This document shows, piece after piece, positions 1-63,986 of a stretch of 64,000 nt of DNA; position 1 is the stretch's first letter, and each line of letters opens with the position of its first letter. Position numbers and translations under genes: made by a program. The DNA comes from Xestospongia bergquistia (Eukaryota; Porifera; Demospongiae; Haplosclerida; Petrosiidae). The notes below the pieces were generated by a model. The model was not told the origin of the DNA and searched no databases. It saw nothing but the letters and a program-made list of their open reading frames with translations. The DNA lies in assembly GCA_963965975.1 (NCBI GenBank), contig OZ014412.1:994501-1058500 (forward strand), in the 5' to 3' direction.

Positions 1-3000
1 GAATTACATATCATAAATATATCAGAAGTGAACTATAATAAATTTTTTTACCTCATGTGGACTAAAGTTATATGTTGGAATAGCATTTGTTAACTGAGCT
101 GAATCTTTATAACTGATATAAAGGTAATAGTGATAACAAACACTTGAATTAACAAACCTCTTTTTGTTAGTTTGTGGATAATATGTAACTGCTCCCTCTG
201 TTAGCAAAAATGTCATATAATTAATATAGTTAATAATAACTCATATACCTTCACTAAGAGAGATTACTTGCTTTTTCTTTCTCCGCTGAATAATACAACT
301 AAAAACTATTATCACAGCAATACAGGTTATAATTATCAGTAATACTCCAATAACAACAAATATAAAATTGATATAAATAGAATCTGTAGTAAAATTAATC
401 AATTCAAGTTAAATGACACACCTAGACTGACCAACATATATTCCACTAGTAGGTTCTACAGATGCCATTACACTAGTAGTATTACTAGTAAAATCACTGA
501 CTGACTCATAAGATATTGTGCCTAGTAAGATTATAATGACATAGCATAATAAAAAAGTAATTACATTACTTACTGGTAAAAATAATAGTCTCAGTAGGAG
601 ATGGTAGTAGTAAGATATATTCCAGTACTTGAGGGTACACAACAGATGGGTTAGTTATAATAGTACCATCTACTATATCATGAGCTGTCACAGTATAGTT
701 ACCACTAACTGGTAGAGTTATATACTGGTATACTGTACTCTCCTCTATACTGGATTTACTTATATTAATAGACTTTACAGTTCCTTTAGAAGACTCTCTA
801 AATATCACATGACATCCATCAGCAGTAGATCTCTCAGCAAACCTACACTCTACAACAACTGATCCATTATCTGAGCAGCACTGTGGAGTGAGTCCTTGAA
901 CATGGTAGGTTGCTATGATGATAATGAAAATATTTTAGTATCAAAATAAAAATAGCTACTTACTAAAATATGATTCATTTGTTGTTTTAACGTGACCAAA
1001 AGAATCCATTATATCAGCAATAAAAACACAATTCAGTTGAGGACCAATGTTTGGTGTGTTATAGTTAACAGTCACTGACTCTTTATCTTCTGAAGAGTAG
1101 ACAATATCAGAAAGAGCATGTTTTTCTTCTGTTCCATGGGAGTTATCTCTAGTAATACCCAGTAAAGTACTGTTACAGAGTTTTGGAAAACCTTCAACCT
1201 AAAGATACAGTCAATAAATAGATAGATAGATAGATTTAACTACTACTGTATTTCCTTGAATAAAGCTGCAATATCTATTTAATTCAGGTCCAAGAGGGGA
1301 GATGCTACCATTCAAAGGTGGCAACTACTTGAGGGCAGCATGTACTCAAGTATAATGGCTATAAATATATATGGCTATAAGTATATGAATATAGTTACTT
1401 ATCACAAAATTATAATTTTTGATGTAAAAAAATTAACAAAATACTATTTTGACTTCTGATGTACTATGATTTGACTCTTCATTATTATGTTTAAACTTTG
1501 TAGCCAGGCTACATACTACTATAGAATTCATATATACATATATGCACATAAGTCAGTTGTTAAATATATGAACTGTTAATTCCATACCATTGATTAGTAA
1601 TATTGTTAGTACTTTAGAACATTATCATACAAATCTACATGAATTAGTCAAAACAACAAATTTATTCTAACAAAGAAATACTGTACTTACAGTAACATTG
1701 AAATGGACAGAAACGATTTTCTGCTTATTAAAGATAACACTGTGCTCAGGTTGGATAATGGCGTAAGTTTCTAAGAAATTATAGATAAATTTAATCATTA
1801 ACTATTAAAACATACCTTCAGAGTATATTCTTTGAATACTAGTGCTATTAGAGCCATATTCTCCACTGTGAACTATAACAGTAGCTGTGTAAATATCACA
1901 GACTGTGAGGTTATATAACTCATAAGATGTATCCTCAGTGATATCATTATATAGTAACTGGTCATGTTGGTTCACTATATAAATATGATATGATAGTGGA
2001 TAGCTCTGAAATGGATGAGACCAGGTCAACCAAGAAGAACTGTTGAGACTAAAATTGAAGTAAAGGTTTTCTGTCGCTATTGATGCAATACCTATCATAA
2101 AATAGAGATAAAGTTTCACAATAGAAATATCACATACACCAATTCATCCTTATCTCCAAACTGTATATGTAATAGTACAGTTAATTAATGTAGTAAAGAA
2201 CACTATAGGACTTCACTATAATATATATTTGCTTAATTGCTACAAAAAGTAGGGAAGTCTAAACCATTTGCTGAGATCAAATGTATATTACAGACATTAT
2301 GTGTATCAGCTTTCCTTCTGAGTTGGGATACATATAATTTAGTTACCAGTCTGTCACTTTAATTCATAAGGAAATGATAATGTACAAAGATCTCATTTCA
2401 CACTTTAAAAAGGATTGTGTTGTTTGTCAAATGATCATATAATCCAATGATAATAGAGAGACAAAGGAAACAAGCTATTGTGAAGCCATAATTGAAACAG
2501 ATCACGCCTATTGAAGTACACTCTGGAAATTATATTGTGTATACAATCTTATATACAGTTTATTTACTCACCTAGGGGCTATTTGATCATCGCCAACATA
2601 GTCTTTAGTATCAATGCAGGCAGAAAGTTGCATGTGCTAGGCAGTCCTATAATTAGAGTGCAAAGTACCCAGTAGACGCACTAAAAGGCAAAGCTTTTTT
2701 GTCTTTGATTGACGAGAAATGCTGAGTCATCAATAATCATCTAGCGCATCACGTGAGATTACGTCACTTGAGGAGGATAAGGAAGTCTCTGGATAAGACC
2801 ACAGCGACACTTTAGTGCATTTTTATTATTACTTTAAGCATATTCATAGCAAATTCTTGCAATCACACCTTACAACTATAAAAGGATGTGTTATGTAAGT
2901 TTGAAATTTAGCCTCATACTACCCACACAGTCTGTGCATCCCCTATTTCTACACTCTGGATATGTCAGTGACCTAGCCTCGTACCCAAGTGTTCACGATG

Positions 3001-4068
3001 AATGCCTGGTCACAAGGCTAGCATATACCGAGTTCATCCTGTAGTACCATTTAGAGTAGTCATAAATTATCATATTTTTACTCATAAACATATTAAATAA
3101 TACCACAAGCAATTACACCTGCCTAATAAATTGGTAAACTCAAACTACTGCTTAGAAAACATTTATGTTTTTAAAGTCTGTGAGTTTATAGCAATCACGT
3201 GAAAATGATTACCATGGCTAGAAACAACAAAGATAAGAGTATAGAAGGTACTAATGAAAGTCTACCTGCCACACCCACATCTTGTGTCTGGAAATTAGCC
3301 CACAAACTACATTTCTGTTAAATAGGTTTGATATATATATGCTGTCATACCCTTTCTCTCTAAGCAAAGGGGTGACAATACCAGACTAGCCATTGGTTGC
3401 TGTTGAGCCATTTCCACATACACACACTTGTAGAATATAGAGGGTTGTTTTTAAATAAGGAAATTAATTTTAATGATGAATTACTAGCGTTAATTTAAAA
3501 ACAAATTTAAATATATTTAATTTTTTTGAAATTAGGCTGTTACACTTTAGAAGCTTTATAGTATGCTAACGCAAAGGAGGAAAAAACAAGGAAAGATATG
3601 TGTATTGTATTCATAACTTCCTGAGTAAGTCATGATCTGTCAAATAGGAGTTGCAAAAGTAAACTAGAAACTAACCTTTAACTCTCAAAGTAGTTCCTTT
3701 AGAATCAAAGCTCTCACCAAAGACAAGACATCCAACATGTATCCCATCATTAATAGGTAGTGCTCTTATAGTTAGTACTGATGACAACACACCAACTGAT
3801 ATATTGTTAGTAGTAGTTATCGATATCTCTCTATACTGTTTAATGCCATTAGTAAGTGAATGGTCATTTATCGTCCAAATCAATGTATTTCCTGTACCAT
3901 CACAGGTAAAGTTCACTAGTGTATAAAGTGTTGGTAAGTCTGATAGGGTGGGAGCTGTAGTAATTTTAGCAGCTGAAAAGTATAGCATCAATCTTAATAA
4001 AACAAAAAATGCCACTTACTAGTAGAATCAGAGATAAGTAGAAGGGATAAAAGCACAGTAATTGCCAT
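1..4068 (-). CDS. R1: Ig/FN3 transmembrane receptor with long (type B) tail, 3' end outside window
   Basis: Minus-strand exons by splice sites and phase: 4020-4068 (signal peptide starting MAITVLLSLLLIS), 3676-3972 (Ig), 1816-2091 (FN3-1), 1691-1770 and 964-1198 (split FN3-2), 574-912 (X domain), 432-521 (stalk), 249-383 (transmembrane, then QRRKKK), 158-197 and 52-112 (tail). All visible exons are open and phases agree (mostly 1-1), giving about 534 residues before the gene leaves the window. The Ig exon has the C-W-C pattern (NFTCDGTG, LIWTI, HVGC). The tail has tyrosines in TYYPQ, SYKDS and PTYNFSPHE and resembles the R2 and R8 tails, so I class it as type B. The intron between Ig and FN3-1 is 1.58 kb, far longer than in R2, R4, R5 or R7. 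A pogo transposon sits about 50 bp upstream of the start codon. Function as a surface receptor is inferred from architecture; ligand unknown. Confidence 0.82.
2092..3675. other. Long intron of R1, no coding feature found
   Basis: This stretch separates the Ig and FN3-1 exons of R1; the matching introns of R2, R4, R5 and R7 are under 100 bp. It is locally less AT-rich around 2.5-3.05 kb and contains CACGTG at about 2750 and 3196 and an ACGTCA near 2760. I see no open exon of the receptor family and no recognisable transposon ends. An old insertion is the simplest explanation for its length, but I cannot name it. Confidence 0.4.
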
Positions 4069-10456: not shown

Positions 10457-13181
10457 TCAGTAATGAACAATAATACTAACTAAGAAACTATGTACCTTAT
10501 CTGATTTTGGTGAAAAAGAATTACAGGAAGATGAATATATCTTGTCTGATGAAAACAAGTCATGACCTCTACTAGCATTTGTTTCAGGACTACTAGTTTG
10601 TATTAATGTATTGGATTCTGAAAATAAAGATGGAGTTGTTATCTCTTGATGTGATAAAATAGAAGGTGATAAAAGTTGCTGATTTGAAGGTTCTTCTAAT
10701 ACTTGATGAAGTGAAGGAGTCAATGTAGGTGATTGGAGACGTTGTCTTCTAACTTCAAGTAACTATGGATGAGATAATTACTTCACTATGGCAACATCAT
10801 ACAACTGTTTGTCATAGATGTTGTCTTAGCATATGGCATTGTATAATACTGAATTATTATTATAATATTTATCATTAATATACTATCTATTGTTTACATA
10901 ACACTAGCACATCTTCAGTCAGTAAAGTAACTAGTATAGTTAAGTTTATTTAAAAGAAAATATGAAATTTAAACTAGTTACCTCATCATGACTAATATGA
11001 TAAGGGTCAGTGGTTGTTGTAACATTCTTTAACTGAATTAGATCTTCATAACTGATGTAGGCAAAAGTTAGATATAATAGTCTCATTAGTCATAATATTA
11101 TCATTAACATACTTGTTGTTAATATTTTGTGAATAATGTATCATTGTCCTCTCTAATAATAATAATAAGAAGAAGAAGAAGAAGAAGAAGAATATATGTG
11201 TGTTTGTGTGTATGCATATCATATGTATGTTGTATGTATGTATCTATATGCTTATAGTATACATCTAGTTAATTAGTTACATACCTTCATTAAGCATCAT
11301 TAATAGTCTCTTTCTCCTCCTTTTCCGTACAATAAGATAACCGACAGCCACTATACTCATTAATGGTATCATTATTCCAACACAAGCTATAATCACATAG
11401 AGATAATCTAAAGCTGCAATACAAATCTCATCATTAAACATCTCATAAATTAATCTTACAATTGGATATTCCACTAGTAGGCCCTATAGATGCTACTGTA
11501 CTAGAGATTGAAATGTCATCAGGTACTGTCGTGATAATTGCATTTAATGTAATTACAGAACCTATACATTAACAAAAAGAAGTACACTACAATGTGCAGA
11601 GTACTTACTGGTTATAATAATAGTCTCAGTAGGAAATGGTAATAGTAAGATATATTCCAGTACTTGAGGGTACACAACAGATGGGTTAGTTATAATAGTA
11701 CCATTTACTATATCATGAGCTGTCACAGTATAGTTACCACTAACTGGTAGAGTTATATACTGGTATACTATACTCTCCTCTATACTAGATTTAGTTATAT
11801 TAATAGACTTCTCAGTTCCTTTAGAAGACTCTCTAAATATCACATGACATCCATCAGCAGTAGATCTCTCAGCAAACCTACACTCTACAACAACTGATCC
11901 ATTATTAGAGTAGTACTGTAGAGTGAGTCCTTGGACATGATAGGTTGCTATGAGAATTAAATTCCATAAATTAAAATTAATTATAATCATTTAATTAACT
12001 TACAGAATATGTTATGATCTTGATTTTTAATTTTGTAAAGACTATTTGTAATGTATACAGTAAAATTGAAAATCATAAGAGGATTTAGATCAGTTATAGT
12101 ATAGTAAGTGACCAACTCTGGATTAGTGTCAGTAACATTGATAGTGAGAAAATTATAAACAATTTTCTCAATAATGTTTGCAGACAGTGCACAATTACAT
12201 AGTTTAGGATGACCTTTGATCTATACAGTAACACACACAATATAATATCAACAGTTTATTCACTTACCATTATACTAAATATCACATTAAAATTGTTCTC
12301 CCTTTCATCAAATATTACAGTATGATTCAATATACTAATAGTGTAATCTACATGGAAATTGAACTAATGACCTTTAGTAATACTACTGACCTCTAGTGTA
12401 TTCCTCTTGTATAGTAACATTATTAGAACTATATTCTCCACTATGAGCTATAACAGTAGCAGTGTAAATATCACAGACTGTGAGGTTATATAACTCATAA
12501 GATGTATCATTAGTGATATTATTATATAGTAACTGGCCATGTTGGTTCTCTATATAAATGTGATATGATATTGGATAGTTCTTAAATGGATGAGACCAGG
12601 TCAACCAGCCTGGTAAAGTGCTAAGACTAAAAGTAAGATAAACATTTTCTACTGGTTTGATACCTGTGATTAAACAAAGAGATGACATTGATTATAATAC
12701 ATAAAATAACCTTCAATAGCTAAGGTAGCTCCTTTTGATACAGCGTTAAAGTTTTCATCAATCACAGCACATCCAATATTTACCCCATCATTAATAGGTA
12801 ATGCTCTTATAGTTAGTACTGATGACCACACCTCAATTGATATATTGTTAGTAGTTACTGATATTTCTCTATCTTGATTACTGGAATCAGTGAGTGGATT
12901 ATTCTTTACTGTCCAAAACAAATCACTACCTGTACCCTCACAGGTAAAGTTAACCAGTGTGTAAAGTGAAGTGTTGATTGATAAAGGAGCTACTGTGATT
13001 ATTTCTGTAATATAATGTGAATGAAAAATGAACATAAAATTAAATTCTGAGTTTTGTTAGACATCAGAGCATACAATATTATTATTTAATCATTACCAAC
13101 AGCATCTGTATCTCTAAAAGTGAGAACAAGACTTCCTATTACAACTGTAGCGAGCAGTAGTTGCCAGTTCTTGTCCATCAT
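10457..13181 (-). CDS. R2: Ig/FN3 transmembrane receptor with type B tail
   Basis: Exons: 13097-13181 (signal, starts MMDKNWQLLLATVVIG), 12711-13004 (Ig), 12391-12663 (FN3-1), 12268-12347 and 12004-12220 (FN3-2), 11609-11947 (X), 11460-11525 (stalk), 11285-11413 (transmembrane, then RKRRRKR), 11113-11152, 10982-11051 and 10496-10762 (tail). Lengths sum to 620 codons with phases in register. Reading on through the last donor gives 12 more residues and a stop at 10457, so the end is either there or in an unseen exon. The tail has YEDLIQL, DPYHISHDE and a Ser/Pro-rich segment. The ectodomain exons 1-5 are nearly identical to those of R4 and the upstream DNA matches too, but the stalk, transmembrane and tail exons are of the R1/R8 kind. 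This makes R2 a natural chimera relative to R4. Confidence 0.83.
11162..11191. repeat. GAA/AAT trinucleotide microsatellite
   Basis: A short AAT run followed by about eight AAG units lies in the intron between the transmembrane and first tail exons of R2. Nothing suggests function. Confidence 0.9.
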
Positions 13182-17879: not shown

Positions 17880-19818
17880 ATGACAGGATTATGAGTAATA
17901 GTTTGTTGATCAACTATAGAAGAAATCACTTAAAATAATAAATAATGTCTTACTCTCTCACCTCCAACTTCATGTAGTTGATGTTTCTTCTTCAAATATA
18001 CAATACCACTAACTACTAGACATATCACTATTATGACAATTACTACTACCACACTAACTGTACTAGTGGCAATAGTAATGAGAAGAAGAGTCTTGTTAGT
18101 GGCTGTATATATAAACTGAAAATTACATAAAACATTTAATGATACCCTTGAATTTAAAAGAGATTCAAGAAGTTCTATATATGTAGTTATGTTCTTGTCA
18201 TTACTACATATCATCTCAATTGATGTAATACCTAATTAGAACAATAAAATACAACACAATATAATACTTACTAGTAGTAATAACAGTCTCAGTAGGAGAT
18301 GGTAGTAGTAAGATATATTCCAGTACTCAAGGGTACACAATGGATGGGTTAGTTATAATAGTACCATCTACTATATCATGAGCTGTCACAGTATAGTTAC
18401 CACTAACTGGTAGACTTATATACTGGTATACTATACTCTCCTCTATACTGGATTTTCTCATATTAAGAGACTCCACAGTTCCTTTAGAAGACTCTCTAAA
18501 TATCACATGACATCCATCAGCAGTAGATCTCTTAGCAAACCTACACTCTACAACAACTGATCAGTTATTAGAGTAGTACAGTAGAGTGAGTCCTTGAACA
18601 TAGTAGGTTGCTATGGTGACAAGGGAATAAGTTATAAGACATTATAAAATATATAAATTAACAAATTATTAACTTACAAAATACAACATGGCTTTGATCC
18701 TTTATGTTGGTAAATATGTCCATAACTTGTAGAATAAATGTATAACTAAGAGAAGGATGTAGTCCAGTTATATTATAATATATTGTTGTTTCATTAACAT
18801 CAGTAACATTCTTAATATAAACATGATGATAGGTTGTTGTCTCATTGTTAACATTATCCTTTGTTATACCATATATGGTACTATTACATAGATGAGGAGA
18901 ACAACTGATCTGGATTCATAAGAAATAACATTATTTGTGTTTTATTGGTCCTCACTTTGATAGCAAATTGTATTTGTATCATAGAACTGTTTACAGAGTT
19001 ATCAAAAATTACAACAGAACCATGTTTATTCTTCACATGATATATTGGAATACTTACTTCCTTGTGGAATATCATTGGAGTAAAATGATAGATGAGATCA
19101 GGTTAATGAGATATTCTTTGTAAAATCCAAATCAAGGTGATCTAAGGTGAAATACCTGAAATGTTATATATAAATAATAATGATCTCTAATACACTTATA
19201 GTAATAATAAAAATGTTGATTGATATATTCATTTTTAGATAGTTTTATTTTGTTTTCATTTAGCCACCTTTTTTGTTAGAGTTACACAAAATGAGATGAA
19301 TTGACACAGTCTAACTGTACATATCAAATCAAATCATATTTACTACACAAGATGGACAAATTAATTAAATATTTTTAGTTATTTTTGTTGTACCTTTGAC
19401 TGTTACAGTAGTTCCTTTCTGTTTTATATTAAAAGGATTGTAACTTATCACAGTACATTGAACAATCATCCCATTATTAATAGGTAGTGCTCTAATAGTT
19501 AGTACTGATGACCACATATCAACTGATATATTGCTAGTAGTTACTGATATCTCCCTGTCTTGATTACTGGGATCAGTGACTGAATTACCTCCTACTGTCC
19601 AAGACAATAAATCTCCTATACCCACACAGGTAAAGTTACCCAATGTGTAAAGTGGAAAAGACAGTGATGAAGGATCTGATGTGATGTTAGCTATAACATA
19701 ATCTTATAATTTATAATATAGACAAGATATATAACTTACCAGCTTCATTTACAAACCAAGGTTTAATGATAATTATAACAAAATGTTTTTAGGATGATTT
19801 CAGCTACTTCCATTTTTA
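17880..19818 (-). pseudogene. R3: receptor pseudogene with deleted tail
   Basis: Same gene plan as R10, its nearest relative. The signal exon (about 19742-19818) has lost two bases compared with R10 and hits a stop. The Ig exon (19394-19690) is fully open. The FN3-1 exon (about 19030-19155) has an early stop and is fused by deletion to the next exon (about 18940-19000). FN3-2b is at about 18680-18906. The X exon (about 18274-18612) has TGA in place of a Gly codon. Stalk and transmembrane exons (18118-18232, 17970-18105) remain open. The first tail exon (17893-17922) keeps DQQTITHNP, but the DNA after it jumps to sequence that lies downstream of the last exon in R5, so the NPSY/YENI exon is gone. 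Clearly non-functional as a signalling receptor. Confidence 0.82.
18111..18120 (-). other. R3 transmembrane-exon acceptor region
   Basis: The intron end TATATACAG before the R3 transmembrane exon is intact and matches R5 and R7, so splicing signals in this part of the pseudogene have survived even though the reading frame upstream is broken. Confidence 0.4.
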
Positions 19819-20099: not shown

Positions 20100-21215
20100 T
20101 ATAATAGGATCTTACTCTTCTTAAAGATGGAATTTAGGATTATTGTGATGATGTAACAATAAATTATTTTGTGAACGAAGTCTCTCGTGACTATCTTTCC
20201 TCTCTGATCTATGATGAGACAAAACAGGAAGTAGAATTGGATATGTCACTAAAATTATAACTTGTTATGAAACTGGTGTTATGACTAGGTATGAGTCTAG
20301 TATCAGGATTAGATATGTCTCTAGTATTAGAACTGAGTATAAAACTAGAAAAAACTCATTGTTTATTGTCTTGTTACCATAGTAATAGATGAAGGAAGTG
20401 GGACAAATGATGGAGATGGTATAGATGGTATTATATCACTATTTATACTAGATGGAGATATTTCATGTTGTAACTGATCTTGTAGTTGACTATCACCTCC
20501 TTCATACCTATAATACATATATTAACATGTAATGATCAGTTTTAACTTACTTATTAGTAGGTCTACTTTGAAATGAATCAGTTCTCTTTAAAGTACCTTA
20601 TATATATGATGTCATATATCTGATGATGTCATTGTCACATGACTTACCACTAACTGAGTTCCCAGTTCTTTCTCCTTCTCTTTTTAATACTATAATACAC
20701 TACCAATATAACTAGTACTATTACTAACAATATGATTACTATACTAACTGCTATAGCTAGTGGAGAGAGAGAGAGAGATTTTATACAAATGTTTTATTTA
20801 CATTATTTAAATTAAATAATATACCAGTATCTCTGATGTGTACTGATGTAATAGAACTAGTAACATTTCCTGATCCAGTTATCATATGACACTTATATGA
20901 CACAGTTGGACTAGGTGTCTCTCTAATACTATCATACATTGTACTATAGACACATCTGTAAGTGTAGGTCAACTTGGTTGTGAGGGAGGGAGGACTTGTA
21001 CTGTTGATATCATTATAGCTATACCAGATGAGTCTTTCTGTCAATAATTGTTAATATCAAATATATCAATATTATATATTCCAATCTCCTGAACTTGATA
21101 TTGTCTTCATTTCAAAAATATCCTCCATTATCAGACCCTGTCATAAATGTATATGATATACACAAGACCCCATTATCAGTAGATATAGAGGCATTCTGTA
21201 CTCTATAACTACCTA
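20100..21215 (-). pseudogene. P2: second-family receptor relic, most complete copy
   Basis: Reading down the minus strand: an X-like exon about 21125-21213 (SISTDNGVLCISYTFMTGSDN); a membrane-proximal domain exon 20825-21037 that is open and in 1-1 phase, with WYSYND, YTYRCVY and VSYKCHM giving a two-Cys Ig-like pattern; a transmembrane exon 20648-20756 (VIILLVIVLVILVV, then KKRRRKNWELS); a tail exon about 20572-20620 (TLKRTDSFQSRPTN); a tail exon about 20385-20515 (QLQDQLQHEISPSS); and a decayed tail piece 20110-20345. The transmembrane exon holds a four-base duplication next to its donor that introduces a stop, so this copy is broken. The family is related to R1-R10 by plan but has a different transmembrane segment and tail. 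Confidence 0.65.
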
Positions 21216-22230: not shown

Positions 22231-24193
22231 TTATATTATAATATTTTCATAGTCATCAGTACATGTCCTACTAGGTTGTACTGTTATATATGATGGATTA
22301 CTCTCTAACTCCACTCTTCTACTTCTCATCTCTAATCTGTGTACTATGTATTGATCATAATATGAACTATATAAAGTTATAATAATGAACATAGTTACCT
22401 TCATCATATGCTGGATTATGAGTAATAGTTTGTTCATCAAATATAGAAGAAATCACTTAAAATAATAATAAATGTCTTAATCTCTCACCTCCAACTTCAT
22501 GTAGTTGATGTTTCTTCTTCAAATATACAATACTACTGACTACTAGACATATCACTATTATGACAATTACTACTACCACACTAACTGTACTAGTGGTAAT
22601 GAGGAGAATAGTCTTGTCAGTGGCTGTATATGTAGTTTCAGTAAGAGATGGTAATAGTAAGATATATTCCAGTACTTGAGAATACACAACAGATGGGTTA
22701 GTTATAATAGTACCATCTACTATATCATGAGCTGTCACAGTATAATTACCACTAACTGGTAGAGTTATATACTGGTATACTGTACTCTCCTCTATACTGG
22801 ATTTACTCATATTAATAGACTTTATTGTTCCTTTAGAAGACTCTCTAAATATCACATGACATCCATCAGCAGTAGATCTCTCAGCAAACCTACACTCTAC
22901 AACAACTGATCCATTATCAGAGTAGTACTGTAGAGTGAGTCCTTGAACATGATAGGTTGCTATGAGAAGAAAAGTCTATGCATTAAAATTAATTATAATC
23001 CTTTAATTAACTTACAGAATATGTTATGATCCTGATTTTTAATTTTGTAAAGACTATTTGTAATGTATACAGTAAAATTGAAAATCATAAGAGGATTTAG
23101 ATCAGTTATAGTATAGTAAGTGACCAACTCTTGATTAGTATCAGTAACATTGATAGTAGGAAAATGATAAACCATTTTCTCAATAATTTTTACAAACAGT
23201 ACACAATTACAAAGTTTAGGATGACCTTTGATCTATACAGTAACACACACAACATAATATCAAAAGTTTATTCACTTACCATTATATATAATACCTCATT
23301 AAAATTGTTGACCCTTTCATCAAATATTACAGTATGATTCAATATACCAATATTGTAATCTACATGAAAATTAAAATAATGACCTTTTGTAATTGTACTG
23401 ACCTCCAGTATATTCCTCATGTATAGTAACATTGCTAGAACTGTATTCTCCACTATGAGCTATAATAGTAGCAGTGTAAATATCACAGACTGTGAGGTTA
23501 TATAACTCATAAGATGTATCATTAGTGATATTATTATATAGTAACTGGTCATGTTGGTTCTCTATATAAATGTAATATGATATTGGATAGTTCTGAAATG
23601 GATGAGACCAGGTCAACCAGCCTGGTAAAGTGCTAAGACTAAAAGTAAGATAAACATTTTCTACTGGTTTGATACCTGTGATTAAACAAAGAGATGACAT
23701 TGATTATAATACATAAAATAACCTTCAATAGCTAAGGTAGCTCCTTTTGATACAGCGTTAATGTTTTGTTCAATCACAGCACATCCAATATTTACCCCAT
23801 CATTAATAGGTAGTGCTCTTATAGTTAGTACTGATGACCACACATCAACTGATATATTGTTAGTAGTTACTGATATTTCTCTATCTTGATTACTGGAATC
23901 AGTGAGTGGATTATTCTTTACTGTCCAAAACAAATCACTACCTGTACCCTCACAGGTAAAGTTAACCAGTGTGTAAAGTGAAGTGTTGATTGATAAAGGA
24001 GCTACTGTGATTATTTCTGTAATATAATGTGAATGAAAAATGAACATAAAATTAAATTCTGAGTTTTGTTAGACATCAGAGCATACAATATTATTATTTA
24101 ATCATTACCAACAGCATCTGTATCTCTAAAAGTGAGAACAAGACTTCCTATTACAACTGTAGCGAGCAGTAGTTGCCAGTTCTTGTCCATCAT
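22231..24193 (-). CDS. R4: Ig/FN3 receptor with ITAM-like (type A) tail
   Basis: Exons: 24109-24193 (signal), 23723-24016 (Ig), 23403-23675 (FN3-1), 23280-23359 and 23016-23232 (FN3-2), 22489-22959 (X fused to transmembrane), 22399-22455 and 22231-22343 (tail). Sum 530 codons including the stop, phases in register. In R5 and R7 the X and transmembrane domains are separate exons with a stalk exon between; here one open exon joins them in frame, so a deletion removed both introns and the stalk. The usual acceptor before the NPAY exon is changed from AG to AT, but an in-phase AG a little upstream (end of TTATTTTAAG) can serve and adds a few residues. The tail has HNPAYDEG, SNPSYITV and DDYENIII: two YxxV/I motifs nine residues apart. 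Ectodomain nearly identical to R2. Confidence 0.82.
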
Positions 24194-37199: not shown

Positions 37200-37680
37200 C
37201 TGAGGAGACCCACTTAATTTAGAAAACCTTCATATCTATAATACATATATTAACATGCAATGATTAGTTATAACTTACTTATTAGTAGGTCTACTTTGAA
37301 ATGAATCAGTTCTCTTTAAAGTACTAAACATATGATGTCATATATCTGATGATGCCATTGTCACATGACCTACCACTGAGTTCCCAGTTCTTTCTCCTTC
37401 TCTTTTTAATACCTAAATGCACTACCAATATAACTAGTACTATTACTAACAATATGATCACTATACTAACTGATATAGCTAGAGAAAGAGAGAGAAAATC
37501 ATGTAAATATTCAGTGTGTACTGAATTAGTACCATCTTCTGATACTGTTGTCATGGGAAATATAAAACAGACTAGTTCATCATATGACAAATCACTTGAC
37601 ACTTACACGACACAGTTGGACTTGGTGTCTCTCTAATACTATCGTATTATGTATCATTTACTGGTATTAGTATTATATAA
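37200..37680 (-). pseudogene. P5: short second-family relic
   Basis: Contains a tail exon at about 37275-37322 (TLKRTDSFQSRPTN), a transmembrane exon at about 37373-37480 (VIILLVIVLVILVV, GIKKRRRKNWELSG) with intact donor, and part of the membrane-proximal domain exon (37500-37650, TPSPTVSCKCQV) that meets stops. No signal, Ig or FN3 exons. Matches P2 and P3. Confidence 0.6.
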
Positions 37681-38354: not shown

Positions 38355-40547
38355 TTATATTATAATATTTTCATAGTCAGCAGTACATGTCCTACTAGGT
38401 TGTATTGTTATATATGATGGATTACTCTCTAACTCCACTCTTCTACTTCTCATCTCTAATCTGTGTACTTTGTAATGATCATAATATGAACTATATAAGT
38501 TATAATATGAACATAGTTACCTTCATCATATGCAGGATTATGAATAATAGTTTGTTGATCAACTATAGAAGAAATCACTTAAAATAATAAATAATGTCTT
38601 ACTCTCTCACCTCCAACTTCATGTAGTTGATGTTTCTTCTTCAAATATACAATACTACTGACTACTAGACATATCACTATTATGACAATTACTACTACCA
38701 CACTAACTGTACTAGTGGTAATGAGGAGAATAGTCTTGTCAGTGGCTGTATATATAACTTGAAAATTACATAAAAATATTTAATACTTACATACATGACA
38801 CCCTTGACTTTAAAGAAGATTCAAGAAGTTCTACAGATGCAGTTATGTTCTTGTCATCACTACCTATCTTCTCAATTGATGTAGTACCTAATAAATTATT
38901 ATAAAACAATATAAAAGAGTACAATATAATACTTACCAATAATAATATTAGTCTTAGTAGGAGATGGTAGTAGTAAGATATATTCCAGTACTTGAGGGTA
39001 CACAACAGATGGGTTAGTTATAATAGTACCATCTACTATATCATGAGCTGTCACAGTATAGTTACCACTAACTGGTAGAGTTATATACTGGTATACTGTA
39101 CTCTCCTCTATACTGGATTTACTCATATTGATAGACTTTATAGTTCCTTTAGAAGACTCTCTAAATATCATATGACATCCATCAGCAGTAGATCTCTCAG
39201 CAAACCTACACTCTACAACAACTGATCCATTATCAGAATAGTAATGTAGGGTGAGTCCTTGAACATTATAGGTTGCTATAAATAAAGAGAAAATATTATT
39301 GATCTCTTTACACAAGTCATTTTGTGAACTTACTGAATGTCAGCTTAGCAGAATTTATTGTTTTCTCAAAACTGTTTGCAATGTATATAGTAAAGTTGTA
39401 CTTCATTGAAGAGGTTAGGTCAGTTATAGTATAGTTGATCACTTGTTCAATTTCAGTAATATTGACAGTTAGAAAATACTTATTGACCATCTCATTATTT
39501 TCTTTAACATTCCCAAACAGAACACTATTACAAAGTCTAGGATAACTTTTGATCTGAAATTAGTACACAGTAAAGAGTTAAACTCATTTTATTTACTTGC
39601 CATAATTTCAAATGTTGCATTGAAATTGTCCTCATTTTTATCAAACATTACGTTGCAATTCTGTATACTAATATTATAGTCTATACAGGGAACATAAAGA
39701 AAACCATTAATACTACAGCCTACCTCCATTATATTCATCTTTAATGGTGTCATTACTAGAGCTATATTCTCCACTATGAGCTATAACAGTAGCAGTGTAA
39801 ATATCACAAACTGTGAGGTTATATAACTCATAAGATGTATCCTCAGTGATATCATTATATAGTAACTGGCCATGTTGGTTTTCTATATAAATGTGATATG
39901 ATAGTGGATAGTTCTGAAATGGATGAGACCAGGTCAGCCAACCAGAAATATTGATAATATTAAAAGTAAATTGTAGGTCTTCTACTAGTACAATACCTTT
40001 AATTGAATTTACGTAATAAAGTCCATACTAGAAACTAACCCTGGATTGTCAAAATGGCCCCTAATGATGCAATATCATAGTTATGATCTATTACAACACA
40101 TCCAACACTTATCCCATCATTAATAGGTAGTGCTCTTATAGTTAGTACTGATGACCACACATCAACTGATATATTGATAGTAGTTACTGATATCCCTCTG
40201 TCTTGATTACTGGGATCAGTGAGTGAATTATCCTCTACTGTCCATGTTAAGACATTTCCTTTACCCTCACAGGTAAAGCTCACTAGTGTGTAAAGTGAAG
40301 CAGATACTGGTAAGGGAGCTACTGTGATATCAGCTGTAAGAAAACCAATAGTTTCAAAGATAATAAAAGTATATATAATATATATACATATACTATTTTT
40401 TACAAAGAAAGTTTGATTTATATTATGTTATGATCCTGCCACCTATTCAATCAACTATTAATATTTACCATTAACATCTGCATCCTTTAAACTCAGTAGA
40501 AAGCTTACTAATACAATAGTTATCAACTTTAGTGTCTCTTGGTCCAT
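38355..40547 (-). CDS. R7: complete Ig/FN3 receptor with ITAM-like tail
   Basis: Exons: 40469-40547 (signal, MDQETLKLITIVLVSFLL), 40040-40333 (Ig), 39724-39996 (FN3-1), 39601-39680 and 39334-39553 (FN3-2), 38937-39275 (X), 38795-38887 (stalk), 38611-38745 (transmembrane), 38521-38562 and 38355-38467 (tail). Total 556 codons including the stop, 555 residues, in register. Close paralogue of R5, sharing the GC donor after FN3-2a, the start region and the tail. Tail: HNPAYDEG, SNPSYITI and ADYENIII, with nine residues between the two YxxI motifs. The stalk is eight codons longer than in R5 and rich in Ser and acidic residues. Likely an expressed member. Confidence 0.86.
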
Positions 40548-46620: not shown

Positions 46621-47836
46621 TAGTAATAATTATATTCATAATAATGCACTTTGATAGCAATAATAATGGCATTTAATACAAAGTGAAACTAACAAAGAAC
46701 GGTGTGTGTATAAATAATTTTCTCCCATGAAATGAACCCGTTATACAATAGTGAACATAATGTGTTTACTGTTTACATAACAGTTCATGAGAAAACTATG
46801 ACATATATCTATTACTATATAAACAAGTAATAATAAGAGTACATACCTCATCATGACTTATATGGTAAGGATCAGATACTACTGAAATAGCTGTGGTTAA
46901 CTGTTGCATATATTCATAACTAATATATGGTATAATGTAACAATGATTGTAATATATAGTTAGTAACATACTTGTTATTATTAGCACGTGGATTATAAAC
47001 TACTGCTCTCTCTATTAGTAGAAATATATAAAGTGAATATATCAACATTCTTAACCCCATATATACCTTCACTGAGTGTTATTATTGACTGTTTCTTCTT
47101 CCTCCTCTGGACAATAACACAAGTAAATACTATCACAGATATTATGATCATTATCAATATAACTACAGCAACTACTACAACAGGTATTATATAGAGATTT
47201 CCTGGAACTACATAAAATTATCACAATATGAACTGACTTAAACATTATGTGACTTACTATAAGAATTTCCAGTAGTAGGTTCAATTGATCTCATTATTTG
47301 CATAGTACTAGTATCATTAGTGATCAAAGAAACAGTTTCTTTACTTGATGAAGTAACTAGTAAGACATCATAGAACAGCAAATTAAATATTATATTACTT
47401 ACTTATTGTAATACTATTAGTAGATGGTGGTAGCAAGATATATTCCAGTACTTGAGGGTACACAACAGATGGGTTAGTTATAATAGTACTATCTACTATA
47501 TCATGACCTGTCATAGTATAGTTACCACTAACAGGTAGACTTATATACTGGTATACTGTACTCTCCTCTATATTGGATTTACTAATATTAATAGACTTCA
47601 CAGTTCCTTTAGAAGACTCTCTAAATATCACATGACATCAATCAGCAGTAGATCTCTCAGCAAACCTACACTCTACAATAATTGATCCATTATCAGAGTA
47701 GTAATGTAGAGTGAGTCCTTGGAGATGGTAAGTTGCTATGGAGAGTATAAAGAAGTCAGTAGGACATTGCTACATTTGACTTACAAAATATCACATGATC
47801 TTCATTCTTTGTGTTATTAAATAAATCCCATAACAT

Positions 47837-50930: not shown

Positions 50931-51054
50931 TTATATTATAATATTTTCATAGTCATCAGTACATGTTCTACTAGGTTGTACTGTTATATATGATAGATTA
51001 CTCTCTAACTCCACTCTTCTACTTCTCATTTAAACTATATGGACTACAATGGAA

Positions 51055-54000
51055 CTATAACATATGACATTTGATACAACTATATAAATTACTTTCTTCA
51101 TATGCTAGATTATGTCTAATAGCTTGTTGATCAGCTAGAGAACAATATTGTTATGTAATTGATATTGTTTATTTCTTTCTTACCTCCAACTTCATGTTGA
51201 TGTCTCTTCTTCTTCCTCCAATATACAGTAATACTAGTAGCTATCACTATTATAACAATAACAATTATTACTACAATACTGACTGTACTACTAGTAATAG
51301 TAATGAGAATGAACACAGACTGATTGGTAGCTGTATACAAAGTAAGTTATAATAATAATAACTAATACAATATTAAGTACATACATGATATCTCAACAGT
51401 AGATGATACTACTGATGTCATATAACCAGTTGTCTCTACTCTTAGTAAAGTACCTAATAATAATATATATCATTATTATAATATAATATAGAGGTCTTAC
51501 TGATGACAATAGTGATCTCATCATTTAATGTTGTATCTAGTAAATAATATAATTTAAATAATATAATATAGTTAGTATATAGTACTTACTGATATTACTA
51601 ACAGTCTCAGTAGGAGATGGCCATGGTAGTAAGATATATTCAAGTATTTGAGGGTACACAACAGATGGGTTAGTTATAATAGTACCATCTACTATATCAT
51701 GAACTGTCACAGTATAGTTACCACTAACTGGTAGACTTATATGCTGGTATACTGTACTCTCCTCTACACTGGATTTACTAATATTAATAGACTTCACAGT
51801 TCCTTTAGAAGACTCTCTAAATATCACATGACATCCATCAGCAGTAGATTTCTCAGCAAACCTACACTCTACAAGAACTGATCCATTATCAGAGTAGTAC
51901 TGTAGAGTGAGTCCTTGGAGATGGTAGATTGCTACAGAGAGTATAAAGTAGTCAGTAAAATATTGCTACAATTGACTTACAAAATGTGACATGATCTTTA
52001 TTCCTTGTACTGTTAGCTAAATTATCAAGTGATGCAGTAAATGTATAATTGAGAGAAGGATGTAGTCCAGTTATACTATAATATATTGTTGTTTCATTAA
52101 TATCAGTTCTATTGATGTAAACAGGATCATAAGATATAGTCTCATTGTTCACATTATCTTTTGTTGTACCATATATGATACTATCACATATGTGAGGAGA
52201 ACAACTGATCTACAAATAGTTAAAATTAATGAACATAAGTATTTTAAAAGTTTAGTTCTCACATTGATAGGAAATTGTACTTGTATTAAAGAGCCACTTC
52301 CAGTGTTTTTGGATCCCACAACATGGTCAAGTATGTCAATAGTATAATCTGATATATTATGATAATACATTAAATGGATAATTATAATAATCTTACTTCC
52401 AGTATATTGTTCAGTAATAGTTGTAACAAGTGAACTGTATTGTTCAATAAAAGCTTTAACACTAGCAGTATAAATATCACAGTACTCTGTGAGGTTACTA
52501 GGTAACTGATAGAATGTATCAGTTGTATTAGCATCTACTATTATAGAGCCATCTTTACTCTTAACATTAACATGATATATTGGAATACTATCTTGTAGAA
52601 TATCATTAGAGTAAAATGATGGAGAAGACCAAATTAAGGGGATATCCCTAGTAGAATCCAAATCAAGGTAGTTAACAGGTGAAATACCTATAAAATTTAT
52701 AAGAAATAAAATTAATGATATTATTGACAGTTTTACCACATAAAACATAGCTGGTTCAGATAATATTTAGCTGTTTACAAGTAAAAGATTTAGTTATCAT
52801 ATCATCATATATAATAATGTACAATAAACTTTTTATATATATATAAATACCATTGACATACATAACACTAGCAAAAATTCAACTTTAACAAAAATTAACA
52901 TAATATATCAGAATTTGACACTTTGACTATATAATATAGAATATTAAATATTCTGTGTTTACTACTTACAAAGAGAAGCTGTTACATTGACTTAAATTAA
53001 ATGAGAAAAATATGATATGAAGTACACATGTTATTCAAATTGCCCATCAACATCACCAATATGAGGCTTACTCAGACACACTCTACAGTTAAAGAGGTGT
53101 GGTCTTATGAAGCCGTAATGCAGAGAAATTTATTGAAAATACATTGATCAATTTTATTATGGTCTAGTAAAGGCAGATACCAATATAATTTATATCTAAA
53201 TCATACCACACAATCAATAAAAATATATCTCTATATCAGGATTTCACTATGTTCAGAATTCAGAATGACCTTCACACAAATATTCCTAGTACTGATATAT
53301 GGAAATATCTGACAATGCACTTTATAATTAATTTATACTGTAAGCCACAAGTAAGCTATCAACAGTGCCATCTGATGATACGTCAACAAATGGAGATGAT
53401 GTTTCCAGCTTTCTTGATAATAGCTAATTCAGTATTTTGATAGGATATGTTATTAATAACTACAATGGAAGTATGTTTGCCATAATAATCTTGTAAATAG
53501 TACTTGTCATAGTATGTTACACACACAGCCATTGGAGTTAACTTCTATTATAACCTCTATTTTGTGAAAGGCTCAATTCTATAATCCATTGGGACCATAT
53601 GTTATGTATATAGGTGCATGTCTGTGTTTATATGGATACCTTTATTTTCACTGTTTTGTTGTATTGTTATATGAGATGACAAAGTGACAAATGATATTAA
53701 ACTGCCTTCTTTAACTGCTAATGCATATATCAACTAACAATTCATTAAACCAAATTGTGAGCACTACAATGATAGATATGACTGATCATGTTTAATGTTT
53801 CTCACTAGTTTGCTTCTCTTCCTATATCTCTAGTATTCTGTACATATTAGTCTTTCACAGACATTGCTGCTATCTCTAATCAATTTTTCATTTTAAAGTC
53901 AGTATCTTCCAAAACTATTATAGGCAGAGGAATAGGAACGAAGTTTAAGTTGGGGAGGCTGACCTTATATTTAGTTGCGTTATATTATTAAACATCAAAA

Positions 54001-54885
54001 AAATGAATCCGTTTGTTGTTAAAGGAAACAAACTCTTTAGCTATTTCTAATAAGTTTATGTTATCAGTACAGTCATTATGTGTATGACATGTAACAGCAT
54101 GACATGGTTTAGTTGTTCTTGGGTAATATATAGTACTTCGTAGGTAATTTTTTAGTCTGAGTAAGGTTGAAAAAGTGCATTCAGTTCTATTAATACTTTT
54201 ATTATAGCAATTAATTTACAGAAGGTAACATGACCCCACAATAATGTGGAGATTGATTGTTAATTAATGTACACAAATTAACACAATCACTTCAGTCAAG
54301 AGGTTATTGTGTACATACTTTGAGTGCAAATCAGGAGGGGGGCTTAGCCCCCCTGATTTTAAGTTGGGGCTTCAGCCCCCTGCTCCCCTTTCCTACCCCA
54401 ATGATTTATAGGATGCTTTTCAATATTATAATCTTGTAAATTTACCTTTGATTTTTAAATGAGCTCCCTTTTGTTCTAAATCAAATGGATTATAACTGAT
54501 CACAGTACACAGAACAGTTATCTCATCATTAATAGGTAGTGCTCTTATAGTTAGCATTGATGACCACACATCAACTGATATATTGTTAGTAGTTACTGAT
54601 ATCTCTCTGTCTTGATTACTGAGATCAGTGATTGAATTACCCCCTACAGACCATAACAGGACATTTCCTGTACCCTCACAGATAAAATTAGCCAGTGTAT
54701 AAAGTGGGGTAGTAACTGTCAAGGGAGCTACTGTGATTACAGCTGTACATGTAAGGAAGCAAACATTAAGCAGATAATACAAGCTGTTTTATGGAGCTGT
54801 ATCGCTTACCAGTGGTATATATCTCTTCAAAAGTAAGTAGAAGAGTCGCTAAGATGGTCAGAATAATGGTAGAGGCCTTCTCCAT
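51055..54885 (-). CDS. R9: Ig/FN3 receptor with shortened tail lacking the ITAM-like pair
   Basis: Exons: 54810-54885 (signal, MEKASTIILTILATLLL), 54446-54742 (Ig), 52397-52687 (FN3-1), 52263-52348 and 51981-52209 (FN3-2), 51590-51931 (X), 51501-51536 and 51385-51453 (stalk), 51184-51330 (transmembrane, then RKKKRHQHE), 51055-51134 (tail). Total 551 codons including a TAG stop, in register. The donor after the tail exon is lost, and reading on stops after about 12 residues. The former NPAY is NLAY. The old last exon (50929-51045) still shows SYITV and DYENI, but NPSY is NLSY and an in-frame TAA precedes it. The intron after the Ig exon is 1.76 kb with repeat DNA. The Ig strand-F/G part (TVISYNPFDLEQKG) groups with R3 and R10. 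A tail-dead, possibly decoy-like form; this is inference. Confidence 0.78.
52750..54440. other. Long intron of R9 with probable small mobile element
   Basis: Between the Ig and FN3-1 exons. About 53925-54420 has G/C-rich ends: GTTTAAGTTGGGGAGGCTGA on the left, and on the right stacked GGGGGGCTTAGCCCCCCTGA and GGGGCTTCAGCCCC hairpins. Such G-run ends are typical of small non-autonomous DNA transposons in marine invertebrates, but I could not confirm matching inverted ends. The rest is AT-rich with no exon. Confidence 0.35.
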
Positions 54886-56279: not shown

Positions 56280-56440
56280 TGTAGTGCACAGAGTAATTTA
56301 CTGAGATATACGATAAATTATTCCAGACAGGTACCTCGTGTTGTGTTTTGATCATCTCGTCTCAAACTGAACTGTTTATATTATTTTGTATATCAATGTA
56401 TGGTATTAGTGTTATATCATTCTAAATACTAAATTGGTGA
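56280..56440 (+). repeat. 5' LTR
   Basis: Begins TGTAGTGCACAGAG; the right limit is set only by the primer-binding-site-like sequence near 56433-56446. Its first 100 bp pair with the 3' LTR. Confidence 0.75.
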
Positions 56441-56453
56441 CCCAGACAGGAGA

Positions 56454-57103
56454 ATGTCTGTCAAAGAAACCGCTGCTTGTGATCCCTTGACCTCAGTCAC
56501 TACTATCAGTTTCCAACTACCTTCATTTTGGCCATCAGATCCCAAGATATGGTTTGCCCAGGTTGAGGCACGATTCACCACAAGAGACATCTCAGCTCAG
56601 AAGACCAAGTACAACTATATTGTTGCTTCCTTATCCCCCGAATTTCCTGCGGAAGTTAGAGACCTCATTCTAAAGGTACTCGAGACTGATCCTTACATAA
56701 AGGTGAAGGAACAGTTCATTAAACAAATAGCTGTTTCTGAGCAGCGCAGGTTACAGCAGTTATTCAACGCAAAAGAGCTGGGAGATCGGAAACCTACCCA
56801 GTTATTACAACGTATGCAGCAGTTACCCAGGGAAAAAGCCAACACCACAGATGGATCCTTTCTTTGTCATTGTTTCTCCAACGGTTGCCATCCAATGTTC
56901 ATATGGTCCTAGCATCTACTGCTGACACCACATCGATTGACGAGTTAGCCAACCTAGCCGATAAAATTATGGAGGTTGCCACACACACTTCATCAATGTC
57001 TGTTGTTAGCCAATCACAGCTCTCCTCAGAAATGGAACAACTTTGTAATCAGATCTCTAACCTTCAAAAGCTTGTCCAACGACTTTCAACATCTCAACGA
57101 TAA
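56454..57103 (+). pseudogene. gag region of the LTR element (fossil)
   Basis: Encodes a recognisable gypsy-type Gag core with the FWPSDPKIWFAQVEARF signature and following helical segments, directly after the 5' LTR. Broken like the rest of the element. Confidence 0.8.
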
Positions 57104-57299
57104 GATCCCCCTCATACTCATTCACCCAGCCCAGCCCTACAATGATCTCAATCAGACATATGTTGGTACCATCAAAAATTTGGTGATTTTACCAAGAAAT
57201 ACCATAAGCCTTGTTCGAAGTTGGGAAAAGCCTCGGCCAGCAACCACTAGTGGCGACTGGTGTTGCTGGCCACAAATAACCTAGTCACCTATTTTATGT

Positions 57300-61504: not shown

Positions 61505-63986
61505 TCACATTACAATATTTTCATAGTCAGTACATGTCCTTTTAGTTTTTATAATCAAATATGATGGATTACTCTCTAACTCTAATCTTGTTTTCATCTC
61601 AAATATGTGAACTACATTATTAAAATAATAATTGAGTTATTAAGATTAAAACATACCTTCTTCATAAGCAGGATTATGTTTGATAGCTTGTTCTTTCACT
61701 ATAAACACAGAACAATAATCTTATTTGCTAGTTCCTTTATTCTTATTACCTCCAATCTCATGTTCTTGTCTTTTCCTCTTCTTCTTCAAAAATATAGTAA
61801 GAGCAATTACTAAAACAATTATAGCAACAATTATTACTAGACTACTGAGTGTAGTACAAATAGTTACAAAGAGAGATGCAGTAACTGTACACAAAGAAAA
61901 TAATAATATATTAATAACTAACATAACAAACATACATGATGTTTTATGAGTAGACTCCACAGTTGATGTCATTAGTGATTTATTTATTGATGTAAAATCT
62001 AGAAATATATAATGTATAATATCATATAATAATTATTTTACTGGTACTAAAGTAGGTCTCATCACTTGATGTCATGCCTGTAGCAATAAAATTATAAAAT
62101 AAAGGCATACAATAGTGACTTACTTATAACAATAACAGTCTCAGTAGAAGATGGTAATAGTATAATTGATGTAATACCTAATACATTACTATAGAAAAAT
62201 GTAAAATAGTACAATATAATACTTACTGGTAATAATAATAGTCTCAATAGGATCCGGAGATGGTAGTATTAAGATATATTCCAGTACTTGAGGGTACACA
62301 ACAGATGGGTTAGTTATAATAGTACCATCTACTATATCATGAGCTGTCACAGTATAGTTACCACTAACTGGTAGACTTATATACTGGTATACTGTGCTCT
62401 CCTCTATACTGGATTTACTCATATTAATAGACTTTATATTTCCTTTAGAAGGCTCTCTAAATATCACATGACATCCATCAGCAGTAGATCTCTCAGCAAA
62501 CCTACACTCTACAACAACTGATCCATTATCAGAGTAGTACTGTAGAGTGAGTCCTTGAACATGATAGGTTGCTATGGTGACAAGGGATTAAGTTATTGAA
62601 CACTATAAAATATATAAACCAACAAATTATTAACTTACAAAACATAATATAGTTTTGATCTTTTATGTTGTTAAATAAATCCATAATATATGTAGTAAAT
62701 GTATAATTGAGAGATGGATGTAGTCCAGTTATATTATAATATATTGTTGTTTCATTAACATCAGTAACATTCTTAATATAAACATGATGATAGGTTGTTG
62801 TCTCATTGTTAACATTATCCTTTGTTATACCATATATGGTACTATTACATAGGTGAGGAGAACAACTGATCTGGATCATAAGAAATAACGTTATATATTT
62901 TTTTATTGGTCCTCACTTTTATAGCAAATTGTATTTGTATCATAGAACTGTTTAAATAGTTATTAAATTTTACAACATGGTCAAGTATATCAATAGTACA
63001 ATCTGATAACAGATAACATTAATATATTAAATAAATAGTTGTAATAATCTTACTTCCAGTATATTCCAGTAATAGTTGTAACAAGTGAACTGTATTGTTC
63101 AATAAAGGCTCCATCACTAGCAGTATAAATATCACAGACTGTGAGGTTACTAGGTAACTGATAGAATGTATTAGTTGTATTATCATCTACTATTACAGAA
63201 CCATCACTATCCTTAACAATAACATGATATCTTGTAATACTGCCTTGTGGAATATCATCAGAGTAAAATGATGGAGGAGACCACGTTAAGGAGATATTCT
63301 TAGTAAAATCCAAATCAAGGCAGTTGACAGGTGAAATACCTATAATGTTATATATAAATAATGATTTCTAATATATTTATAATAATAATCAAAATGTTGA
63401 ATTGATACATTCATTTTTAGATATTTTAATTTAGCCATTTATATCACTTATATTTTGTTAGTTACATAAAATAAGATGAACTGACATAGTCTAACTGTAC
63501 ACATCAAATCAAATATACAAGATGGACAAATTAATTAAATATCTATCAATTATTTTTTGTTGTACCTTTAACTGTTATAGTAGTTCCTTTCTGTTTTAAA
63601 TTAAAAGGATTATAACTGATCACAGTACATTGAACAGTTATCCCATCATTAATAGGTAGTGCTCTTATAGTTAGTACTGATGACCACACATCAACTGATA
63701 TATTGTTAGTAGTTACTGATATCTCTCTATCTTGATTACTGGGATCACTGACCGAATTACCATGTACTGTCCAAGACAATAAATCTCCTATACCCACACA
63801 GGTAAAGTTAGCCAATGTGTAAAGTGGAAAAGATAGTGATGAAGGAGTTAATGTGATGTTAGCTATAACATAATCTCATAATATATAATATAGACAAGAT
63901 ATAAACTTACCAGCTTCATTTACAAACCAAGGTTTAATGATAATTATTACAAAAATTGTTTTCAGAATGATTTCAGCTACTTCCAT
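61505..63986 (-). pseudogene. R10: Ig/FN3 receptor with ITAM-like tail, one frame break
   Basis: Exons: 63911-63986 (signal, MEVAEIILKTIFVIIIIKPW), 63566-63862 (Ig), 63054-63339 (FN3-1), 62917-63002 and 62639-62870 (FN3-2), 62227-62571 (X), 61936-61998 (stalk), 61750-61884 (transmembrane, then KKKRKRQEHE), 61657-61698 and 61505-61611 (tail). All exons are open, but the FN3-1 exon lacks two bases near 63065 compared with R9, which shifts the frame just before its donor. The tail is well kept: NPAYEEG, NPSYLII and DYENIVM with eight residues between the two YxxI motifs. Either a very young pseudogene, an assembly or base error, or an allele. Ectodomain nearest to R3 and R9, tail nearest to R6. 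Confidence 0.75.

Follow-up and report, generated by a model that had tools for sequence, protein, structure and literature searches.

A 64,000-nucleotide (nt) stretch of the demosponge Xestospongia bergquistia (contig OZ014412.1, positions 994,501 to 1,058,500, hereafter the window) carries an array of about six receptors plus relics. Its sequence supports a tandem family of type I receptors with immunoglobulin (Ig)-like and fibronectin type III (FN3)-like domains and tyrosine-bearing tails. Two properties of the array are new here, namely the silent-site homogenisation of one exon, termed X, and the exchange of tails between ectodomain lineages. We favour, with a probability of roughly 0.55, the view that these are germline-diversified recognition receptors which would signal by recruiting Src homology 2 (SH2) and phosphotyrosine-binding (PTB) proteins, with X as the joint between ectodomain and tail.

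Searches of the window with single exons (tblastn) identified ten X exons, every one of them on the minus strand; an independent repeat search returned ten 300-nt X copies that are 90-96% identical in DNA to the reference. The units were numbered from high to low coordinate, from U1 (62.6 kb) to U10 (0.9 kb), which is the direction of transcription. An Ig-like exon was detected by tblastn in nine of the ten units, U3 having none, and a signal-peptide exon with a phase-1 donor was chosen in eight of the nine units with an Ig exon, U8 retaining a fragment only (in U5 the third-listed candidate was taken and in U7 the second, score-tied, both being nearest to the Ig exon). Splice phases were consistent across units: a phase-1 end for the signal peptide, 1-1 for Ig and Fn1, 1-0 for Fn2a, 0-1 for Fn2b, and 1-1 for X, stalk and membrane-span exons. 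The tails fall into class A (U1 and U4-U7, five of the ten units, plus U2 beyond its stop), an unrelated class B (U3, U9 and U10) and a downstream cassette, class C. The ten units, all on the minus strand, are as follows.

61505..63986, minus strand: U1, joined exon model with signal peptide, Ig, Fn1, Fn2a, Fn2b, X, three stalk exons, membrane span and tail exons cy1 and cy2; class A tail.
50931..54885, minus strand: U2, joined model, open until an in-frame TAA early in cy2; one 1758-nt intron.
46972..47735, minus strand: U3, joined model of X (with a stop), stalk, membrane span and class B exon b1.
38355..40547, minus strand: U4, complete ten-exon model of 559 amino acids (aa), class A tail, GC-AG intron after Fn2a.
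34772..36939, minus strand: U5, complete model of 570 aa, class A tail with the strict spacing of an immunoreceptor tyrosine-based activation motif (ITAM).
27374..29477, minus strand: U6, complete ten-exon model of 553 aa, class A tail, GC-AG intron after Fn2a.
22231..24190, minus strand: U7, open model of 523 aa, class A tail.
17885..19690, minus strand: U8, pseudogene in which the Ig exon is intact, Fn1 and X contain stops and the tail breaks off within cy1.
10982..13178, minus strand: U9, open model, class B tail (b1, b2).
52..4068, minus strand: U10, open model, class B tail, leaving the window at its low end.

Reading frames run uninterrupted from ATG to stop in the models of U4, U5 and U6, and every acceptor there is AG. 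In U5 the X exon is fused with the stalk (35267-35731, minus strand), the donor being lost and the frame kept, and in U7 X is fused straight to the membrane-span exon (22489-22959, minus strand), again in frame and with no stalk. The cy1 acceptor of U7 is AT instead of AG; skipping of cy1 would preserve the frame, since it is a 1-1 exon. U9 reaches a stop at 643 aa when a tentative exon b3 (10762-10457), which rests on U9 alone, is added. In U1 the conserved Fn1 donor (exon end 63054) is out of frame, the exon being 2 nt short relative to U2 just before the donor; the in-phase GTs there are weak only, and the joined frame contains 44 stops. The tail of U2 stops before its ITAM-like pair, and U3 is without signal peptide, Ig and Fn1 and keeps Fn2b only as a degenerate fragment. 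An earlier sequence-only reading of this stretch had described ten tandem same-strand receptors that share a signal peptide and an Ig domain, four of them (R4-R7, which are U4-U7 if numbered along the window) with complete models. The ten same-strand units were recovered, but ten functional receptors are ruled out by the stops, lost exons and out-of-frame donor of U1, U2, U3 and U8; the shared signal peptide and Ig domain hold outside U3 and, for the signal peptide, U8; and complete models stand for U4-U6, U7 being open but for its AT acceptor.

Very short introns prevail in eight units, where the median is 49 nt and 65 of 72 do not exceed 100 nt; the GC content of the window was about 31%. 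Small introns and 64.2% AT are given for Amphimedon in the accessible part of PMC4773876, the table column being matched by gene density. A high AT content with such short introns would suit a compact demosponge genome, and it would suit other eukaryotes as well. No tRNA or Rfam match at gathering scores was found in the window. The GC-AG introns after Fn2a lie at 39601 in U4 and 28592 in U6 (minus strand), and U7 and U9 have GTAAGT at this position. Orphan Ig and Fn1 fragments at 16633-16523 and 25537-25442 (both minus strand), between U8 and U9 and between U6 and U7, are probably relics of further units. When the 300 nt that precede the start codons were compared (21 pairs; U1, where the window ends 14 nt upstream, and U3 and U8, which have no start codon, were left out), only U4/U6 and U7/U9 stood far above shuffles, U2/U5 and U2/U10 beating the best of 30 shuffles by only 2 points.

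Tails have been exchanged between ectodomain lineages. For the six units with class A tails, the ectodomain tree was (U1,U2),(U5,(U7,(U4,U6))), and the tree of membrane span plus tail was (U1,U5),(U2,(U7,(U4,U6))). In approximately unbiased (AU) tests, the tail data rejected the ectodomain tree (p 4e-6) and the ectodomain data rejected the tail tree (p 3e-40). When the post-stop exon of U2 was omitted and Fn1 of U1 was ended at its donor, both trees were unchanged and the tail data still rejected the ectodomain tree (p 0.0018); with the same two changes, the ectodomain data preferred their own tree by 162 log-likelihood units. U7 and U9 provide a further case. Their DNA matches at 94% over 1853 nt, a block that begins upstream of the signal peptide and finishes at about the X end, and 377 of 411 residues are shared between the protein start and a point close to that end. 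Beyond it the two are unalike, U7 carrying a class A tail and U9 the unrelated class B tail. Likewise, the ectodomain of U8 is U1-like (89% over an 828-nt block, Fn2 through X), but its membrane span is U4-like.

The X exon, of which the U4 copy is given as an example, differs from the other exons in its silent sites.

38937..39275, minus strand: X exon of U4, one of ten homogenised copies, FN3-like, phase 1-1.

The median proportion of synonymous differences (pS, Nei-Gojobori) was 0.10 for X (45 pairs), compared to 0.59 for Fn2 (28 pairs), 0.29 for Fn1 (28 pairs) and 0.28 for Ig (36 pairs); these values were obtained from ten units for X, nine for Ig, eight for Fn1 and Fn2 and six for the tails, with stop codons skipped and Fn1 of U1 cut before its end. 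Across the 28 pairs common to all exons, which come from eight units (U3 and U8 left out, as in the Mantel and pairwise homoplasy index (PHI) tests below), pS of X was below that of Fn2 in 27, of Ig in 26 and of Fn1 in 24. Distances in X did not follow those of its neighbours (Mantel test, Spearman rho -0.24 vs. Ig, -0.36 vs. Fn1 and -0.03 vs. Fn2), and 19 of the 28 informative site pairs in X (68%) were incompatible with one tree, vs. 12-31% in the other exons; the PHI test gave p 0.019 for Fn2. Between U7 and U9, the most similar pair, divergence is greater in X than in Ig, Fn1 or Fn2. The introns that flank X are less alike than X itself. Since the silent sites are homogenised, gene conversion or repeated unequal exchange acting on X would be the simplest reading.

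The predicted ectodomain architecture is Ig-FN3-FN3-FN3-stalk, with X as the last FN3. The first domain is provisionally assigned to the Ig fold because its Cys-Trp-Cys residues (C21, W30 and C78) are invariant in all nine copies and all six matches of its profile in the PDB were Ig-domain proteins, weak as these were (E 0.28-0.97). Fn1 matches Pfam fn3 in U4 (30.6 bits) and U5 (27.6 bits) at a cut-off of 25, U10 remaining below it (20.7 bits). Fn2 is split over two exons, and its second part in U4 is weakly DSCAM FN3-like (E 0.0014, below the cut-off). For X, an AlphaFold model built from eight of the ten copies (U3 and U8 were left out because of their stops) reached a predicted local distance difference test score (pLDDT) of 72.7 and showed seven strands. 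In Foldseek its best match was an FN3 domain of DSCAML1 (E 6.7e-4, template modelling score 0.58), the sole one of 1870 at E ≤0.001; fibronectin and contactin FN3 structures followed at ranks 3, 4, 7 and 8, and enzymes stood at ranks 2 and 6. On the strength of this predicted fold and best match, X is best called a divergent FN3 domain, which rules out its treatment as an unassigned domain in the sequence-only reading. The X profile had no PDB match at E 5 and matched neither the Fn1 nor the Fn2b profile. A search for relatives of X in a genome contig collection yielded 68 pattern-matching stretches and, from these, one chance-like bacterial match of 31 residues; viral contigs held no relatives of X, Ig or the DDE transposase described below. 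No kinase domain was found in the models of U4, U5 and U10, the U10 tail being cut by the window edge.

Class A tails, of about 60 aa, follow the pattern NPAY(D/E)EV ... NPSYxx(I/V)-x8/9-YENI. The ITAM consensus is YxxL/I-x6-8-YxxL/I. The U1 tail reads YLII-x8-YENI; under relaxed definitions U4 needs a spacing of 9, and U6 and U7 need a spacing of 9 plus V at +3. Shuffled U5 tails contained a strict ITAM in 0.5% and a relaxed one in 2.4% of cases, and the Pfam ITAM model did not match U4 or U5 at E 1. Class B tails share exons b1 (phase 1-2) and b2 (phase 2-0). The class A and class B examples and the class C cassettes, each of which is an extra membrane span and tail downstream of a class A tail (U4, U6 and U7), are located as follows.

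38355..38562, minus strand: class A exons cy1 and cy2 of U4, with NPAYDEV and NPSYITI-x9-YENI.
10982..11152, minus strand: class B exons b1 and b2 of U9, with HYSQ, YEDL and DPYHIS.
26146..26535, minus strand: class C cassette behind U6, open by reading, tail without tyrosine.
37281..37482, minus strand: class C relic behind U4, frameshifted.
20366..20760, minus strand: class C relic behind U7, with a stop in the membrane-span exon.

A further class C fragment lies behind U8 (17189-17061, minus strand). We read class C as former tails left over once class A tails had been acquired, and U6 may splice alternatively to its class A or class C tail. A 39-codon open stretch behind U4 (37197-37081), which contains YQSL, was not accepted as a tail, as it is present in no other unit. 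ITAM-like tails, which had been ascribed to the whole array, thus belong to five of the ten units; U3, U9 and U10 end in class B, and the pair in U2 lies beyond its stop. An immunoreceptor tyrosine-based inhibition motif (ITIM; [SIVL].Y..[ILV]) was found in none of the three class B tails, nor was an ITAM (U9 with the tentative b3, U10 to the window end and U3 b1-b2; the later open stretches behind U3, where the frame is uncertain, were left out), and inhibition by class B through an ITIM is thereby ruled out for the tails scanned. Behind U3 lie two related copies of a downstream exon (46617-46486 and 45300-45202, minus strand), and open stretches near them contain HYVEVEV and TQYADI, which by eye resemble ITIM or the immunoreceptor tyrosine-based switch motif in uncertain frames. 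In U2 (51093-51134, minus strand) NPAY has become NLAY, and the short tail, which stops soon after (51043), keeps an ITIM-like LAYEEI; its fit to the ITIM consensus is a lead only.

Under the favoured explanation, the array would encode single-pass surface receptors, each with a signal peptide, one Ig-like and three FN3-like domains, the last being X, a stalk of one to three small exons (fused into X in U5 and absent in U7), a membrane span and an interchangeable tail. The distal domains diverge between paralogues; near-identity of X is probably maintained by gene conversion or unequal exchange, as its silent sites suggest, and X would be the joint at which ectodomains recombine with tails, the exchange itself being seen in the trees and its mechanism presumed. 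Class A tails would probably be phosphorylated on tyrosine and recruit SH2 and PTB proteins through NPxY, YxxI/V and YENI, and their ITAM-like pair would perhaps engage a Syk-type tandem-SH2 kinase; Syk-related proteins in sponges and Hydra are mentioned in the accessible part of PMC9486129. A class B or class C tail in its place would either give the same ectodomain another output or leave it uncoupled. Surface expression and ligand recognition would be expected, and architecture and evolution together suggest self/non-self or microbe recognition as the likely use. A sponge complex in which the homogenised FN3 exon acts as a universal adaptor, placing diverged ectodomains onto activating, alternative or tyrosine-free tails by ectopic exchange, is a tentative proposal that we hold to be possible, with the odds against it.

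Several observations weigh against this explanation or limit the evidence for it. A strict ITAM (Y..[LI]-x6-8-Y..[LI]) is present in only two of the five class A tails, U1 and U5. Between the class A subtypes U1/U5 and U4/U6/U7, the proportion of non-synonymous differences (pN 0.17-0.19) is close to pS (0.19-0.25), which implies little constraint outside the motifs. In its favour, the NPxY and YENI columns vary at 0 of 12 positions vs. 21 of 39 elsewhere (five class A tails, U2 being out because of its stop; Fisher p 0.0005), but this value is only indicative because the alignment was in sight when the columns were picked and its rows are related. The Mantel tests give only a modest contrast, since the other exons also correlate weakly among themselves (rho 0.24, 0.31 and 0.33 among Ig, Fn1 and Fn2, with p <0.05 for Fn1/Fn2 only); PHI was not significant for X (p 0.61; eight sites, too few), and X data do not tell the ectodomain and tail trees apart, their log-likelihoods being equal. 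On the structural side, Pfam Ig_3 matched one of nine Ig exons without exceeding the cut-off (E 0.049), the AlphaFold model of the Ig domain was too poor to use (pLDDT 47.6), and X had no Pfam match above the cut-off. Lastly, U1, U3 and U8 are broken and U2 is truncated.

NPxY and YxN motifs bind PTB domains and the SH2 domain of Grb2, respectively. As all five class A tails carry NPxY twice and YxN, docking of the Shc/Grb2 type would be an equal reading of their motifs. It is conceivable, at clearly lower odds than recognition, that the whole family serves docking or adhesion, class A tails acting through NPxY (PTB binding, endocytosis) and YENI (Grb2-type SH2 binding) in a growth-factor-like or adhesive manner rather than through ITAM and Syk, which the scarcity of strict ITAMs would also fit. 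However, a tandem array with mixed tails and concerted evolution is more usual in recognition receptors, and NPSY also supplies the leading YxxI/V of the ITAM-like pair, which lets the same residues fit both readings. True paired receptors in the manner of KIR, LILR and SIRP, with activating class A and inhibitory class B tails on one ectodomain, would accommodate the agreement of U7 (class A) and U9 (class B) and the LAYEEI of U2; given that no ITIM occurs in the three class B tails read and that U2 offers a single short motif, and this in a truncated tail, we consider them unlikely.

That the array is merely decaying, with mostly non-functional copies and no present role, would agree with its broken and truncated units, the degenerate class C cassettes of U4 and U7 and the transposon-like open reading frames (ORFs) inside it; this appears improbable, as the 9-10 exons of U4, U5 and U6 still form open frames whose splice phases are conserved, and the class A motif columns are invariant. 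The silent sites of X might instead be held by a function in DNA or RNA, such as splicing or an overlapping RNA, and its near-identity in all ten units next to less similar introns would fit. Nevertheless, constraint alone is no explanation, since divergence in X is untied to that of the neighbouring exons and, in U7/U9, is even greater than in Ig, Fn1 or Fn2, and constraint would not be expected to persist in the broken U3 and U8; we judge this alternative very improbable and retain recognition receptors joined through a homogenised X.

Sequences resembling mobile elements lie within the array. Between U1 and U2 (56433-60059, plus strand), frames resembling gag, reverse transcriptase and integrase were seen by eye in several reading frames, with GC up to 41%. 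Between U9 and U10 (5200-6474, plus strand) lies a transposase (Pfam DDE_1, E 6.7e-25), followed by a Cys/His-rich, finger-like stretch recognised by eye. Just upstream of U3, an ORF (48228-48788, minus strand) looks transposase-like by eye and has no Pfam match; it may have cut off the distal exons of U3.

Vertebrate KIR, LILR and SIRP are tandem receptors of the same family in which near-identical ectodomains occur on different tails; ectodomains in these families and in FCRL consist of Ig domains only, and the activating forms usually use adaptor chains. The array differs in that its ectodomain includes FN3 and its alternative tails, as read, are without ITIM. The sequence-only reading had proposed a possibly undescribed Ig/FN3 family with vertebrate parallels; the family is supported, yet clustered Ig precedents outside vertebrates exist in Alr and FcoR. 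Hydractinia Alr is likewise a multigene Ig-type receptor cluster of a non-bilaterian, with ITAM and ITIM and 41 members (according to the available parts of PMC12065747 and PMC11999971), but Alr ectodomains are built of V-set and I-set Ig domains and those of the array of one Ig-like and three FN3-like domains. Botryllus FcoR proteins, as described in the portion of PMC12065747 at hand, are type I, 520-610 aa long (523-643 aa in the array models) and carry ITIM, hemITAM or core YxxI/L/V motifs; they vary in gene content and swap motifs by splicing, comparable to the exchanged tails here. They differ in having V-type Ig, sushi and C2-type Ig domains, and FN3 or a homogenised joint exon is not described in that portion. 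According to the same source, sponges, cnidarians and ascidians do not have conserved candidate allorecognition proteins in common, and ITAM/ITIM-type motifs occur in those of both Hydractinia and Botryllus. In sponges, the accessible text of PMC2248247 reports Ig-type receptor tyrosine kinases and adhesion molecules, surface proteins with Ig-like domains that are raised after grafting. In contrast to the kinases, the array is FN3-rich and tandem, with no kinase in the three models scanned. No sponge counterpart was among the matches listed in the open-access literature, mostly titles and starts of abstracts, which is no proof of absence, and the accessible parts of PMC9505182 and PMC10866841 contained nothing on sponge ITAM receptors. 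The best reading of these comparisons is that the array would work like Alr, FcoR or vertebrate paired receptors but is not a member of any of them.

Because Alr and FcoR are non-vertebrate clustered Ig receptors with such tails, only the sponge example would be new. If the tentative proposal of a sponge complex with X as universal adaptor is true, tandem, tail-switching ITAM-type recognition would reach back to the base of the animal tree, earlier than its examples in cnidarians and tunicates. A sponge array with swappable ITAM-like tails would make the age of this signalling logic testable. The locus is also a clear example of modular evolution, with a homogenised exon placed between a diversifying ectodomain and exchangeable tails.

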